64,000 nt of DNA from NCBI GenBank assembly GCA_035591015.1, contig JAXIUW010184736.1:85043-149042 (forward strand), given 5' to 3'. The notes below the pieces were generated by a model. That model did not search any database. It was given only the letters and a program-made list of their open reading frames with translations, and was not told the DNA's origin. How positions within the stretch are numbered: the first letter of the stretch is position 1; each line of letters begins with the position of its first letter. The stretch comes from Cephalothrix simula (Eukaryota; Nemertea; Palaeonemertea; Archinemertea; Cephalotrichidae). Positions 30,655 to 60,529 of the stretch are shown here, in pieces. A program made the translations under genes and the position numbers.

Positions 30655-31326
30655 CTAGCCCTGCTTGTATCCAAAGAACTCTGAATGTTCAGCCCATTCA
30701 GCGCTATCTTCACCAAGAATCTCAATGGCTGTATCAACGGCCTCTTTATCGGCATATTCGCTCTGACCAAAAACGTAGCGGCTATCTTGTTCCATATAGG
30801 CGGAATCCTCACCCAGCCTTGTGGTTAGAATATTCTTCATATAAAGGGTCAAGTTGCCCATGTATACAATCTGATTTGGCTTCACAAGCACCACTGTTAC
30901 CGGGTGCTGACCAGAAATATCATCGGGCAATTCGTATTCTGTCGTAATTTCATTCCAGTGCATATTACTGTATTCATATGCACCATAGGATATTGAGATT
31001 AAGTCATACTCCCCAAAAGGTACTACCATTACAGAGTAAGGCCCTATGTTGTTTAATGACGAATAATCTCCGTTACCAGAGCGACTGCGTAGGGTAAAGC
31101 TCTTTATATTATTCTCATAGGCAGCTCTGCCCGTAAGATCATCTTTAATTACGCTGCCCTCAAAAATAACCACGCCGGTCTGCTCTATGGGAAAGCCATA
31201 TAGCATCACATTAGAACAGCCCACCACTATAAATGAAAGTAACCCGACTAAAATTGAAATAATCACCACATACCCCACAGTTGACACACACCACTGATTA
31301 TATGCTATGGAACAGGCATTAGTCAA
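30655..31326 (-). CDS. Predicted lipoprotein of unknown function
   Basis: The protein has 223 residues in the longest frame. A hydrophobic segment VVIISILVGLLSFIVVGCSN carries a lipobox-like VVGC, so Cys37 is probably lipidated. The rest is Tyr- and acid-rich and beta-like (VVVPFGEYDLISISYGAYEY is within it), with an acidic C-terminus. I recognise no family. The frame starts with TTG at 31326 and no good ribosome binding site is visible, so the true start may be a nearby GTG just before the hydrophobic stretch. It converges with the ATPase gene with no gap. Confidence 0.5.
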   Translation of the reverse strand: MTNACSIAYNQWCVSTVGYVVIISILVGLLSFIVVGCSNVMLYGFPIEQTGVVIFEGSVIKDDLTGRAAYENNIKSFTLRSRSGNGDYSSLNNIGPYSVMVVPFGEYDLISISYGAYEYSNMHWNEITTEYELPDDISGQHPVTVVLVKPNQIVYMGNLTLYMKNILTTRLGEDSAYMEQDSRYVFGQSEYADKEAVDTAIEILGEDSAEWAEHSEFFGYKQG

Positions 31327-31434: not shown

Positions 31435-32490
31435 TTAAGATATGATGATGTGCTTCCCCTCAAAGCCATCAACCCTACCGATAATGCTTGCACTGCGTAA
31501 GCCACGACTATGTAGCTCAGCGATGCAGTCTTCGGCCTCATCAGCAGGCAGGCAGGCCAACAAACCGCCCGAGGTTTGCGGTTCTACCAAAATATCAATT
31601 TTATCTTCAGGTAGTTCACGCATAAGTTGTAGGTGGCCTTCAACGCGATCATAATTAGGAATATTAAGACCAGTGCTTATTTTTCCACTGCGATAAAGGT
31701 CTAACACCCCATCTATTAAGGGGATGGCATCTATCTCAATATGATAGCTTAAACCTGAATGAATCGCGCCATTTAAGGCATGGGCAGCTAATCCAAAGCC
31801 CGTAACATCGGTGCAACAATGCACGTTGAAATTCTGCAAAACTTCCATAGCTGAACGATTAAGGGTGTTCATGCTCTCAACGCAAGCATCAAGCAGAACT
31901 TTGCTAACCAGCTTCTTGCGCAAACCATTGATGATAACCCCGCTGCCAATAGGTTTGCTCAAAATTATGGCATCGCCTACCTTAGCACCGTAGTTTTTCC
32001 AAATCTTATCTGGATGCACCATCCCGGCCACTACTAGGCCATACTTGGGTTCTACATCGTCTAGGGTGTGTCCACCACCAATAAATGCACCGGCCTCAAG
32101 CACCTTGCTTTCACCGCCTTTGAGAATCATCTCCATCACGTCAATGCCGACCTGTTTAGTAGGCGTTCCCAGTATGTTAAGGCATAGAAATGGCGTTCCA
32201 CCCATGGCATAAACATCGCTGAGCGCATTGGCTGCCGCAATTTGACCAAAGGTGTACGGATCATCCACCGGTGGCGTTATAATATCGGTGGTTAGCACCA
32301 ATGCCTGCTCATCACTAATGCGCCATACTGCAGCATCATCGCCAGAGCTATGGTCTACCAGCAAATCGCTAGTCTTGAGCGGATAGAGCTTCCGCAGCAC
32401 GTCCGACAACCCTGTCGGACCCAATTTTGCCGCTCAGCCACCGGTCTTAGCCAGCTTTGTCAGCTGTTTTTTGAACCTTAATCCAAACAT
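31435..32490 (-). CDS. selD: Selenide, water dikinase SelD, selenocysteine-containing
   Basis: SelD makes selenophosphate from selenide and ATP for Sec-tRNA and selenouridine synthesis. The frame open from 32424 lacks the family's catalytic N-terminus. Reading upstream in the same frame through one TGA (32434-32436) gives a start ATG at 32490 and the sequence KQLTKLAKTGGUAAKLGP with U at residue 19 and catalytic Lys22. This matches SelD proteins that carry Sec instead of Cys in the glycine-rich loop. Full length is 351 residues, normal for SelD. Later motifs include SSGDDAAVW, TTDIITPPVDDPYTFGQIAA in two halves, and the C-terminal QTSGGLLACLP. A hairpin follows the UGA. It lies 30 bases after argS. 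Confidence 0.93.
32401..32420 (-). promoter_or_regulatory. Candidate bacterial SECIS hairpin in selD
   Basis: On the mRNA strand GTCCGACA GGGT TGTCGGAC forms a perfect 8-bp stem with a 4-base G-rich loop. It begins 13 nt after the UGA at 32434-32436. Bacterial SECIS elements lie directly downstream of the UGA inside the coding sequence, with the apical stem-loop about this far away, and bind SelB. Lower-stem pairing and SelB recognition have not been tested. Confidence 0.75.
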
Positions 32491-32520: not shown

Positions 32521-34233
32521 CTACATGCGCTGCGGGGGTTCCATTCCCAATAACTCCATGCCCTGCCTTAAAACCTTACTAAATGCCTGAAACAAAGCTA
32601 ATCTGCTCTGCGCCAGTTGCGGATTAGGCGCATTGAGCACCGAAGAACTATTATAAACACGAGAAAACTCTCTGGCTAGCTGATAGATAAAATTAGCCAC
32701 CAAATTGACCTTTAATTTTTCGCCAGCCTGCTCTATTACATGATTAAACTCGTATAGTCGTTTAATCATTTGTCTTTCAGCAGGTTGGTCAAGTAGTTGG
32801 TGGTCAATTTGTTCTTCATCTAACTCAAAGTTAATGCGGCGCAAAATGCTTTCAACACGAGCATAGGCATAGCAAAGATAACTGCCCGTATCGCCCTCAG
32901 AGACCAGCCATTCATCCATTTCAAAAATTATTGCTCTGTCAGAATCTTGCTTTAACATGCCATAACGAATGGCCGCTACAGCTATACGGCGTGCTGTTTC
33001 TTCAATTTCTGCTGCTGGCCAATCACGGTCATTAAGGTAGTTTTGGATGACGTAATCATGCAAGTTTTGCCGAAGCTGCTTGAAGGCGATTACATTACCT
33101 GCTCGTGAGCTCATTTTGCCGTCTTTCAGCATCACCAAGCCATAAGATAAATGACTACAGCGCACAGCCACGCCCATAGTCTGCAAGGTTTTGAATAACT
33201 GCTTAAAGTACAGGCTTTGCTCCATGCCCACCACATATATTGAATGCTCTAGGTTGTATTCTTTAGCTTTTCGCCTCGCCAAGGCTAAATCTTTAGTGCT
33301 ATAGAGCGTGCTGCCATCAGATTTAAGCAGCATAAAGAAGCCCTCTTCGGGCAGATTGATGCCCACTGCACCTTCAGACAAGTAAAAAATGTCCTGCTCC
33401 AGCCCCTCTTTGACCATTTTTAAGCCCTCAGCCACCATCTCTGACTCAAAGTAAACTACGTCAAACTTTACGCCTAGCCACGCATAAATCTGCTCAAAGT
33501 CATCTAGCGACCACTGCCGTGTTTGTTGCCAAAGTTCTTGCAGCTCTTGGTTGCCGCCTTCTAGGCTTTGTAAGAGGGCATCTATTTCTTGCTTGGCTGC
33601 TGCTCCGCCTTGCTTTAAGGCTTGTTCAGCCTCAGTATAAGTTTTGCCTAGCCAATCACCGTGGTCGCTGGTTGGCAACTTGCTTTTTAGACATTGCCAC
33701 AGACACTTGGCAACGTGCGTGCCGATGTCGCCAATGTAATTGGCTGCCAGCACCTTATAGCCGTTATAGCGCAAAATGCGTACTAAACTGTCTCCTAGAG
33801 CCACATTGCGCATATGCCCTACATGAAAAGACTTATGCGTGTTTGGCTGCGAAAACTCAACCATTATGCTCTCTTGGTGGCGACCTTGATTAGCCCTAAA
33901 GTAATTGCCATTTAATATTTCAGGAATAACCATCCTGCTCATGGTGGCAATATTGATATGAAAGTTAATATAAGCTCCGCGCACCTCAACCTGACTAACA
34001 TATTGATTGCCATCAATGGCTAACTTTAGTTTGTCTGCTATTTGCTGGGCAATGCGTGGCGGCGGCATTTTCAGCTTAGGAGCAAGTGTAAAGCAGGGCA
34101 GAGCATAGTCGCCCCAGCTAGAATCTGGCGGGGTTTGCAATAGTGAATAGACCTCTGCCGCCGACCAATCACTGCATTCAGCGGTTAGCTGGCTTAGTTG
34201 TTGTTTGAATATATCTCGCATTTCCATCATCAA
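32521..34233 (-). CDS. argS: Arginyl-tRNA synthetase
   Basis: The enzyme charges tRNA-Arg. It has 570 residues, the class I size. The HIGH motif appears as FHVGHMRN near residues 136-143, in the context MVEFSQPNTHKSFHVGHMRN. The KMSKS region reads DGKMSSRAGN near 373-382, the version found in many ArgS proteins. The C-terminal anticodon domain includes LRQGMELLGMEPPQRM. The frame starts MMMEMRD; any of the Met codons could be used. selD follows 30 bases downstream on the same strand. Confidence 0.96.
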   Translation of the reverse strand: MMMEMRDIFKQQLSQLTAECSDWSAAEVYSLLQTPPDSSWGDYALPCFTLAPKLKMPPPRIAQQIADKLKLAIDGNQYVSQVEVRGAYINFHINIATMSRMVIPEILNGNYFRANQGRHQESIMVEFSQPNTHKSFHVGHMRNVALGDSLVRILRYNGYKVLAANYIGDIGTHVAKCLWQCLKSKLPTSDHGDWLGKTYTEAEQALKQGGAAAKQEIDALLQSLEGGNQELQELWQQTRQWSLDDFEQIYAWLGVKFDVVYFESEMVAEGLKMVKEGLEQDIFYLSEGAVGINLPEEGFFMLLKSDGSTLYSTKDLALARRKAKEYNLEHSIYVVGMEQSLYFKQLFKTLQTMGVAVRCSHLSYGLVMLKDGKMSSRAGNVIAFKQLRQNLHDYVIQNYLNDRDWPAAEIEETARRIAVAAIRYGMLKQDSDRAIIFEMDEWLVSEGDTGSYLCYAYARVESILRRINFELDEEQIDHQLLDQPAERQMIKRLYEFNHVIEQAGEKLKVNLVANFIYQLAREFSRVYNSSSVLNAPNPQLAQSRLALFQAFSKVLRQGMELLGMEPPQRM

Positions 34234-57530: not shown

Positions 57531-59006
57531 TTAGCGTATTAAATCAATAACTATTGACGGCTTATGATTAGCGATTGATAAAGCCGAGGCCGAAGCCTGC
57601 ATTCTTAGCCTGTCAGTAGTCACGCTAACCAACTCTTGCACCAAATCAGCATCACGAATAACTGAATCCGCCGCCATCAGGTTTTCTGTAGCCACCCTTA
57701 GCGTATTAATGTTCTGCTCAATGCCATATTTTTGGAACGAGCCCAGCTTGCCACGAATAAGATTTATCTCATCAATAGAGGCATTAACTAAGCGCACGCT
57801 ATCAACAGCATTTTGAAGAGTGCCAATTCTAGCATCGGCTAAGCTACTAAAATTACTACGATTAACCACCGTAGTACCCAGATTAGCCGGCGATACTCTT
57901 GGTAATGATATTGATATATTCTGCCCAACATCAGTAGAAACCTGAAAGCGTGGCGATGAGTTATTCAGATAGACTAATCCTATTGTACCCAGTTGAAACT
58001 CTCTGCCCATAATCGGATTGCCATCTTGATCAACACCAACTTGTTTTTGAGTACCTTCGTAGCGAATGGTCAGCCCCTCGGGATCAGAACCCTCAATGCC
58101 CGTTAGCAACTGCCCATCGCCATGGGCTGGACTGCCACCGATAGTACCCTTGATGTCTCGTCCCGGCACAGCATCTTCCATTTTATCAGGCTCTTCAGAC
58201 AATACGCCATCAATTGAGCTACTGGCCTTGAACACAATGTCACTGCCATACTCAAAATGGGTTAGCCTGATTTTTCCATCAACCAATCGGGCTGTAACGG
58301 GTAAATCAGCATCAGAAATACTTTGGCTGAGTTTGCCAAAAAAAGTTTCTGGGGTTTCGTTTTCAGCACCACGAACGCTAACAAACTTGTCGCCAACGTT
58401 AATCGTAATATCTAAGCTAGAAAGCTCAACGTCTTCTAAGGCTTGCGAACCCTCTATATAGGGTTGTGAGGGAGTTTGCTCAACCTTTACCGCATAGCCA
58501 TCCGTTGGAGAGCTTTTAGTTTTCTCATTACCACGCACAAAGATAATGCCCGGGCCTATGGCTTCACCAGCAATTCCCGATGAACCATCAAACAAATTAC
58601 GCTTGCCAAACTTAGCTGTACGAGAAAAATCATTCAACGTTCTAAGGATGTCGTTAAATTCAGTGGTCATCGCCTGTAATGAGGCGTCATCATTAGCACC
58701 CTCATTGCCAGCTTGCAGAGCAATTTGCCGTAAGCGCATCAATAGCCCCGTAACATCGCCAAGCGCTCCTTCCGCCGTTTGTACCATCGTGTTATCTAAC
58801 TCTGCATTAGCCAAAGCCTGATGCAGACCGCTAAGTTGCGACCTAATCTGCTCGGATATAATTAGCCCCGATGGACTATCAGAACCCCTATTTATCTTTA
58901 ACCCCGAAGATAATCTCTCTAATGACTTAGATAGCCTTTGATCAATATTTTCAAGATGTCGTGCATTGGTTAATGCCGATATGTTCTTATTTATTCTTAT
59001 ACTCAT
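57531..59006 (-). CDS. fliC: Flagellin, copy D
   Basis: The protein has 491 residues. The N-terminal D0/D1 region is canonical: MSIRINKNISALTNARHLEN, then LERLSSGLKINRGSDSPSGL. VQTAEGALGDVTGLLMRLRQ is D1. The C-terminal coiled coil ends ALSIANHKPSIVIDLIR, with Ile-Arg instead of the common LLR/LLG. The central domain has SPTDGYAVKVE and GRDIKGTIGGSPAHGDGQLL, shared with its paralogues. Such 480-500-residue flagellins are common in deltaproteobacteria. The ribosome binding site is weak (AGG 10 bases upstream). mnmE follows. Confidence 0.95.
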   Translation of the reverse strand: MSIRINKNISALTNARHLENIDQRLSKSLERLSSGLKINRGSDSPSGLIISEQIRSQLSGLHQALANAELDNTMVQTAEGALGDVTGLLMRLRQIALQAGNEGANDDASLQAMTTEFNDILRTLNDFSRTAKFGKRNLFDGSSGIAGEAIGPGIIFVRGNEKTKSSPTDGYAVKVEQTPSQPYIEGSQALEDVELSSLDITINVGDKFVSVRGAENETPETFFGKLSQSISDADLPVTARLVDGKIRLTHFEYGSDIVFKASSSIDGVLSEEPDKMEDAVPGRDIKGTIGGSPAHGDGQLLTGIEGSDPEGLTIRYEGTQKQVGVDQDGNPIMGREFQLGTIGLVYLNNSSPRFQVSTDVGQNISISLPRVSPANLGTTVVNRSNFSSLADARIGTLQNAVDSVRLVNASIDEINLIRGKLGSFQKYGIEQNINTLRVATENLMAADSVIRDADLVQELVSVTTDRLRMQASASALSIANHKPSIVIDLIR

Positions 59007-59089
59007 TTCTAGTACCTGAATAAGATTATAGACTCAAAAAATATCCTATATTTTGGAGAATCATCATGTTTATATACGGTTAATCCTAT

Positions 59090-60529
59090 TTATCCCGCAA
59101 GTAACTGTCTTACACTATCCTGTTGCAGATTTAACTGCGACAAAAACATTTTGCGCCAGTTGTCAGCCTCATTCAAACGCCTTATCCACTGGGCTAGATC
59201 AGGGCTGCCACTGAGCTTGCTCCAACCTTCAAGACGACTATAAATGCTATCCCAATTAGCTTGTAGAGCTTCAGCAAATGGCCCTTCAATGCAATGTTTC
59301 ATGCTCAAAACCTCATTCATAGCACTTTCAATGAGCCTCAAGCCATCTTCATATTCGTATTGATGGTGCGCTTGAATGTCTGCCAAACTATTAAATCCAC
59401 TAACATTGATTATCTGGTTAGCCAAACATTGTGGGTGCGCACTATTAATCAACACCTGCGCCCAGCGACCTACAAAATCAAGACGCCCGACATTATTCCG
59501 CAGATGAACCCTGCCCGCTGTATCACTTTGAGCTCTATTATTTTGAGCATTACCATATTGAGCACTATTTACCGCCAGAGCATCTAAATAAAACTCGTTT
59601 TTTGAGCAAGTCTGATCATCAGCAGCAGTGCCTGAAACTAAAATCTTTAGCCCTAGGGTAGATTTAGACCTGCCCAGCAGCATATTGCCCAAGCCAGTGG
59701 CCATTTCTCCATCAATGCTGCCCTCTACGTCAGAGCCATTGGTTACCGACAACTCTTGCGGCAACCAACGGTGAAGATTACTATCAAGCCGAAAACCAAA
59801 GCCTTGACCAGCATAGGCATGCTTTATCAGCAAGCCATCATGGCCATCGGCCTCAATTATCAGCGGCAATCTTCGGCAATGCTCTGCGAGGCGGCCTATG
59901 AACGTAGCGCAATCATCACTTAGATATAATGGACAAACTACACGCTGTTCAGCCACAGTTACGCCCAACACACCACCATTCAGCCGCACAGTTCGGGCTG
60001 GCCAAGCTAGACGATGACTAGCCGGCTGCGCCTTCCTAAAAATACTGACTGCGTAGCCATCTGGCGGTGATGTTCGTGTAGTGTAATCACCACTAATAAA
60101 GCGCAAGCCTGCTCCACTGGTATGGCCTTCTACACCTAGCCCACCGTTGAGCAAGTAGATGCCATTCCACTCTAAGGTTTGAACCAGCTTGTGCATCCGC
60201 TTTAAGACACTGCTCCACGTTGTGGGCGCATCGGATAGCGTAGCGGCTTGAGCCTCGGACAGCCAACTTTCAACACTATCCAAACCCTGCCAACACATAG
60301 AGAGCATCTCATTAAGATACTCATAGCGTTCAAACTCTTTTGAGAGTTCGGCTAGTTCAGCCCTTTGTTTGCCCTGCTTGCCTCGTTGGTCTCTAAAAGT
60401 ATGAGCCGTATTGGTTTGATTCCCAAAGTTTGGCTCTTCTTTAGCTGACCCACGCCGAGGCATTGCCTGAGTTTTATTAGACATGCCCCGGTTGAGCACG
60501 GCAGAACGATTAAGCTGATTTATGTTCAT
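59090..60529 (-). CDS. Highly diverged flagellin paralogue, copy C
   Basis: The protein has 479 residues. It aligns by eye with the flanking flagellins over its whole length. LEWNGIYLLNGG corresponds to the D1 end (QFGKKKLLDGS in copy A); SPPDGYAVSIF and SDVEGSIDGEMATGLGN are the shared central motifs; DGLRLIESAMNEVLSM and the end DSVRQLLAG correspond to the C-terminal helix pair. But the hallmark N-terminal LxSGxxINxAxDxxAG segment is replaced by unrelated basic sequence, and Cys and Trp, rare in flagellins, are frequent. It may be a minor filament subunit, a junction protein or a decaying copy. No frame break is present. Confidence 0.65.
   Translation of the reverse strand: MNINQLNRSAVLNRGMSNKTQAMPRRGSAKEEPNFGNQTNTAHTFRDQRGKQGKQRAELAELSKEFERYEYLNEMLSMCWQGLDSVESWLSEAQAATLSDAPTTWSSVLKRMHKLVQTLEWNGIYLLNGGLGVEGHTSGAGLRFISGDYTTRTSPPDGYAVSIFRKAQPASHRLAWPARTVRLNGGVLGVTVAEQRVVCPLYLSDDCATFIGRLAEHCRRLPLIIEADGHDGLLIKHAYAGQGFGFRLDSNLHRWLPQELSVTNGSDVEGSIDGEMATGLGNMLLGRSKSTLGLKILVSGTAADDQTCSKNEFYLDALAVNSAQYGNAQNNRAQSDTAGRVHLRNNVGRLDFVGRWAQVLINSAHPQCLANQIINVSGFNSLADIQAHHQYEYEDGLRLIESAMNEVLSMKHCIEGPFAEALQANWDSIYSRLEGWSKLSGSPDLAQWIRRLNEADNWRKMFLSQLNLQQDSVRQLLAG

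Follow-up and report, generated by a model that had tools for sequence, protein, structure and literature searches.

Sec-containing SelD is a known kind of bacterial selenoprotein, a point that a first-pass annotation of the locus described here had already made and that the literature bears out: FdhA and SelD have been described as the most widespread bacterial selenoproteins (PMC1794560). A further report names SelD as the second most expansive selenoprotein family (PMC13188914), and in marine samples SelW-like proteins and SelD were reported to be the most widespread (PMC2398784). In the bacterial pathway outlined in PMC13188914, tRNA-Sec is first aminoacylated with serine and then converted by SelA, using the selenophosphate supplied by SelD, and SelB together with Sec-tRNA binds a SECIS hairpin and delivers Sec at UGA. 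For Helicobacter mustelae, Sec-SelD has been reported as the sole selenoprotein (PMC4607533).

Here we describe a selD gene that belongs to this known kind and is a new member of it, from a SAR324-related lineage. Judging from sequence comparisons, we hold with high confidence that it is a functional SelD selenoprotein gene, whose UGA codon 19 would be read as Sec via SelB at a downstream hairpin.

The selD reading frame and its catalytic site

The window, the 64,000-nucleotide stretch of DNA that was analyzed, lies on contig C175 of assembly G000 (8,596,813 bases in 580 contigs). Five features of the window are used below.

31435..32490, minus strand: selD, selenide water dikinase, 351 amino acids with predicted Sec at residue 19 (translated with TGA as U; TIGR00476, E value of 1.4e-101; PF00586 and PF02769)
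32434..32436, minus strand: in-frame TGA, predicted to be read as Sec, residue 19 (comparison with Cys17 of 3u0o; codon counts in relatives)
32425..32427, minus strand: codon for Lys22 of the active-site loop (comparison with Lys20 of 3u0o; conserved in all 80 relatives kept)
32401..32420, minus strand: SECIS-like hairpin, 8-bp stem, its GGGU loop beginning at +22 from the UGA (folding, chance tests, and bSECIS constraints)
32521..34233, minus strand: upstream gene, presumably argS-like (open reading frame [ORF] coordinates; 30 nt from the selD ATG, same strand)

On the minus strand, the selD frame starts with an ATG at 32490-32488, carries TGA as codon 19 at 32436-32434, and ends with a TAA at 31435. 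The TGA is its single interruption, and the frame is otherwise open. A mechanical ORF search begins at a TTG at 32424 and yields 329 amino acids. The first-pass annotation had placed the TGA, Sec19, Lys22, and the 351-residue product correctly to the base, and it had rightly described the conventional frame from 32424 as lacking the catalytic loop. The upstream gene looks argS-like from its sequence, and it may be cotranscribed with selD. Downstream of selD, a 223-amino-acid ORF (30655-31326, minus strand) has a lipoprotein-like start, as judged by eye, and no Pfam match.

Aligning the read-through protein with SelD families, as the first-pass annotation had suggested, favored the longer form. 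Against TIGR00476, a SelD equivalog with a cutoff of 125, the read-through form scored 339.8 bits with the match starting at profile position 2, compared with 316.5 bits and a start at position 16 for the 329-amino-acid form. The score for a second SelD equivalog, NF002098, was narrowly below the cutoff (297.8 versus 299). Both AIRS domains of SelD were recovered, the N-terminal one (PF00586) with 90.8 bits and the C-terminal one (PF02769) with 64.5 bits. In alignments with PDB entries, from which the residue numbers were counted, residues 19 and 22 align with Cys17 and Lys20, respectively, of 3u0o, which we take to be E. coli SelD, and with the corresponding Cys and Lys of 2yye.

Searches of a genome collection returned at least 590 matching stretches from at least 581 relatives, and the best 80 were kept. 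Of these, 59 carry TGA at the codon for residue 19 and 21 carry a Cys codon (TGC or TGT); all 80 have Lys22, and the closest is 50% identical. The residues encoded ahead of the UGA are likewise conserved in relatives. A protein database gave 7,995 SelD matches, with identities of up to 55% among the 120 listed. None of these 120 proteins starts earlier than 22 residues into the query, and 67 start at exactly 22, so that all of them lack the catalytic loop, probably because gene callers truncated the genes at the Sec codon.

The same shortening in all 120 listed relatives might be taken to mean that the real product is the 329-amino-acid form from the TTG at 32424, a loopless SelD-like protein of other function, and it is this open frame that gene-calling software would give. 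Such a protein would be without the catalytic loop, however, and the residues that it omits are both conserved in relatives and worth additional score against the SelD profile, so that we give this reading almost no credence.

The hairpin downstream of the UGA codon

The arms of the hairpin (32420-32413 and 32408-32401) enclose a GGGT loop at 32412-32409, and the first arm begins 13 nt after the UGA, exactly as the first-pass annotation had it. Folding of the RNA after the UGA, a check that it had also proposed, gave a stable structure: the UGA plus 49 nt folds with -20.3 kcal/mol (z score of -2.27), and 6 of 200 shuffled sequences were equally stable. The bSECIS constraints comprise a loop of 3 to 9 nt, an upper stem of 4 to 16 bp, a G in the first two loop bases, a spacing of 16 to 37 nt, and an MFE of at most -7.5 kcal/mol, all as given in PMC13188914. 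Checked one by one against the published limits, the selD hairpin falls within all of them, having a 4-nt GGGU loop, 8 bp, 21 nt between the UGA and the loop, and an energy of -20.3 kcal/mol.

A stricter rule was used to estimate how often such a hairpin would arise by chance, namely, at least 8 Watson-Crick bp and a loop of 3 to 14 nt starting at +16 to +37 with a G in its first two bases. In long ORFs of the same contig, hairpins of this description follow 68 of 39,831 codon positions, and they appeared in 11 of 20,000 synonymous recodings of the 20 codons after the selD UGA. A chance hairpin was rejected on these two counts.

Across the family the picture is less sharp. With a loose loop rule, hairpins were scored in 43 of 60 TGA genes (the 59 relatives plus selD here) versus 11 of 21 Cys genes, and with a looser stem rule, in 41 of 60 versus 10 of 21. 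Mean folding energies were -11.92 kcal/mol for TGA genes versus -12.62 (TGC) and -11.73 (TGT) kcal/mol, with mean z scores of -0.59 versus 0.11 (TGC) and -0.14 (TGT). With these loop counts, and with mean energies that do not differ, the hairpin, as scored, separates the two groups only weakly; the case for it rests on the selD gene described here and not on the family. A search of the SECIS stretch against Rfam returned two weak snoRNA matches, far below gathering scores.

Sec decoding genes in the assembly

Both protein-coding genes expected for Sec decoding are present. selA lies on C175 at 58786-60153 (430.1 bits versus a cutoff of 267.9; PF03841), and a full-length selB lies on contig C1 (363 bits versus a cutoff of 242.25), encoding a GTPase domain, the SelB beta-barrel, and a winged-helix domain (PF09107) near the C terminus. 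One selD was found in the assembly, and it is the TGA-bearing gene; a separate Cys-type selD, which the first-pass annotation had named as possible counterevidence, is not among the genes recovered. The ORF before selA, which we take to be hisH, ends in TGA, and selA begins in the same frame, its ATG being the third codon past that TGA (C175:58147-60177; positions 862 to 2892 of locus L014). Read-through of that UGA would fuse the hisH-like ORF to selA, and the arrangement is probably due to chance.

The Rfam model for tRNA-Sec (RF01852) gave nine matches over the assembly, the best with 45.3 versus a gathering score of 47 (53 of 380 candidates scored); in control searches this model exceeded its cutoff in 5 of 14 genomes. 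ARAGORN calls the nine matches Ser, Leu, Tyr, Cys, Thr, or Lys tRNAs, and they were rejected as tRNA-Sec. A tight DNA pattern for tRNA-Sec had one match, which was not called a tRNA, versus one in the reversed control. A looser pattern had 41 matches versus 19 in the reversed control; 7 were tested and none was called a tRNA, and among the other 34, judged by their letters, no tRNA-Sec was recognized. No tRNA-Sec was found on C175 or near selB, where Rfam returned no match up to an E value of 5 for the selB locus. As a control, ARAGORN calls tRNA-Sec in the loci of 23 of the 80 relatives.

The general tRNA model (RF00005) gave 42 matches over the assembly, of which 31 exceeded the cutoff (63 of 693 candidates scored; 4 of the 11 weaker ones examined). 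This search missed a tRNA-Tyr on C11 and a tRNA-Ser on C47, both of which are present. Any bacterium needs tRNA-His and tRNA-Asp, and neither was among the ARAGORN tRNAs in 72 loci of this assembly (251,022 bases, overlaps included). These gaps and misses point to an incomplete search and perhaps also an incomplete assembly, so that failure to detect tRNA-Sec is weak evidence of its absence. The implication drawn in the first-pass annotation, that the organism has SelA, SelB, and tRNA-Sec, was thus borne out for the two proteins, and tRNA-Sec was not found in these incomplete data. Separately, a weak tRNA-Gly with anticodon CCC (C1:73270-73530, locus L139; 28 bits, below the Rfam cutoff) appears to be divergent or decaying.

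The failure to find tRNA-Sec could suggest that the TGA arose from a Cys codon by sequencing error or by mutation in a pseudogene, and TGA is indeed one base from both TGC and TGT, the Cys codons that 21 of the 80 relatives have at this site. The stop nevertheless coincides with the catalytic codon, and 59 of the same 80 relatives have TGA there too; it is followed by a SECIS-like hairpin at the right distance in a frame that is otherwise open, and selA and selB are present. A corrupted Cys codon is, in our estimate, very unlikely. We conclude that the core claim of the first-pass annotation, a Sec-containing SelD, is strongly supported by the conservation of the site, the hairpin, selA and selB, and the presence of a single selD with TGA.

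Search for other selenium users

Over the whole assembly, PF00384 matched two pieces of one ORF, and no FdhA-type selenoprotein was found. From its letters and its neighbours, we take this ORF to encode NuoG rather than formate dehydrogenase. MnmH, which makes selenouridine, was not detected with TIGR03167 over the assembly (control over the cutoff in 1 of 14 genomes). PF00578 (AhpC-TSA) had one match over the assembly, with no internal stop, and SelW-type proteins (PF10262) had none (control over the cutoff in 2 of 14 genomes).

A scan of C175 for TGA read-through gave eight motif candidates, four of which were followed: selD, the hisH-selA junction, and two more. None of those followed, other than selD, was a convincing case of read-through, and the translations of the last two resemble normal gene termini. 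In 34 other loci (104,564 bases, partly overlapping), a less refined scan produced 16 motif matches; two were read, and neither was convincing. The first-pass annotation had expected the organism to make other selenoproteins, and this expectation found no support in any of the three families examined assembly-wide or in the C175 candidates followed.

The scan also bears on whether UGA has been reassigned to Trp or Gly in this genome, in which case residue 19 would not be Sec. There is precedent for this among bacteria, some of which decode UGA as Trp or Gly. TGA nonetheless terminates 15 of 92 ORFs of at least 150 amino acids on C175, which argues that it also serves as a stop there and is not reassigned as a sense codon. 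Of the seven other motif-filtered TGA candidates on this contig, the three that were examined look like normal gene termini, and either Trp or Gly would be a misfit at the catalytic site. Reassignment is therefore extremely improbable, and Sec remains our assignment for residue 19.

The host bacterium

The assembly has one rpoB, on C175, with at most 67% identity to database proteins among the 120 listed. Six of these are named SAR324 cluster bacterium (the top-ranked one at 66%) and one is named Lambdaproteobacteria; Deltaproteobacteria, Geobacter, or Myxococcales appear lower down, and most of the 120 are without an organism name. The C1 SelB has at most 42% identity to its database matches, 6 of the 120 listed being named SAR324. 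As RpoB and SelB have the same kind of neighbours, C1 and C175 probably come from one organism. These comparisons suggest a little-known bacterium that resembles SAR324, in a mixed assembly. The SelD neighbours with an organism name, 9 of the 120 listed, are eight Acidobacteriota or Thermoanaerobaculia and one Proteobacteria.

Short contigs of about 11 to 14 kb carry tRNAs or tRNA-like stretches of eukaryotic look (loci L140 to L143), and by eye, L141 and L143 look like two copies of a single tRNA-derived repeat. The combination of large contigs, with their one bacterial rpoB, and short, eukaryotic-looking contigs probably represents a eukaryote with its bacterium.

Two SAR324 single-cell genomes are listed as "orphan SelD" in PMC5029168. 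Our database matches include six SAR324-named SelB proteins (P0277, P0283, P0290, P0328, P0341, and P0356), which contrast with that label; it may have arisen because the single-cell genomes are incomplete.

Discussion

A plausible mechanism follows the known bacterial pathway. SelB carrying Sec-tRNA would bind the hairpin that starts 13 nt downstream of the UGA, and the ribosome would for this reason read codon 19 as Sec. The residue would then lie in the mobile N-terminal selenium-binding loop, at the site of Cys in other SelDs, with Lys three residues on. The predicted activity is conversion of selenide and ATP to selenophosphate, which SelA would use to make the Sec-tRNA needed to make SelD itself. 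By this account the organism presumably has a tRNA-Sec, inserts Sec at codon 19, and uses it in catalysis. At the level of annotation, the gene model is corrected: a standard caller would give a 329-amino-acid SelD without the catalytic loop.

Were SelD the sole selenoprotein and no selenouridine made, selA, selB, and tRNA-Sec would be kept only for SelD, as a closed loop, and the bacterium would be a SAR324 relative that lives with a eukaryote. The H. mustelae precedent, together with the finding of no other selenium user in the searched families (MnmH and FdhA-, peroxiredoxin-, and SelW-type proteins), makes such a loop possible; the link to a eukaryote is drawn only from the mixed assembly, and we consider the whole scenario unlikely. 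If SelD were the sole Sec user, one could test directly why cells retain the ability to decode Sec.

The present case resembles H. mustelae in having Sec-SelD in a genome where no FdhA-type protein was found. The H. mustelae SelD is reported to be the sole selenoprotein, whereas here sole status is only a possibility, three other selenoprotein families having been searched over the assembly. Compared with Cys-type SelD, as in E. coli (3u0o), the gene described here belongs to the same family and has the same catalytic layout, but the E. coli protein has Cys in place of Sec and its gene has no UGA. The closest likeness is to bacterial Sec-SelD, with which it shares the position of the catalytic Sec (many relatives continue with Ala-Ala-Lys), both AIRS domains, a hairpin after the UGA, and selA and selB in the assembly. 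Sequence divergence is the only difference (50% identity to the best relative kept and at most 55% to the listed database proteins).
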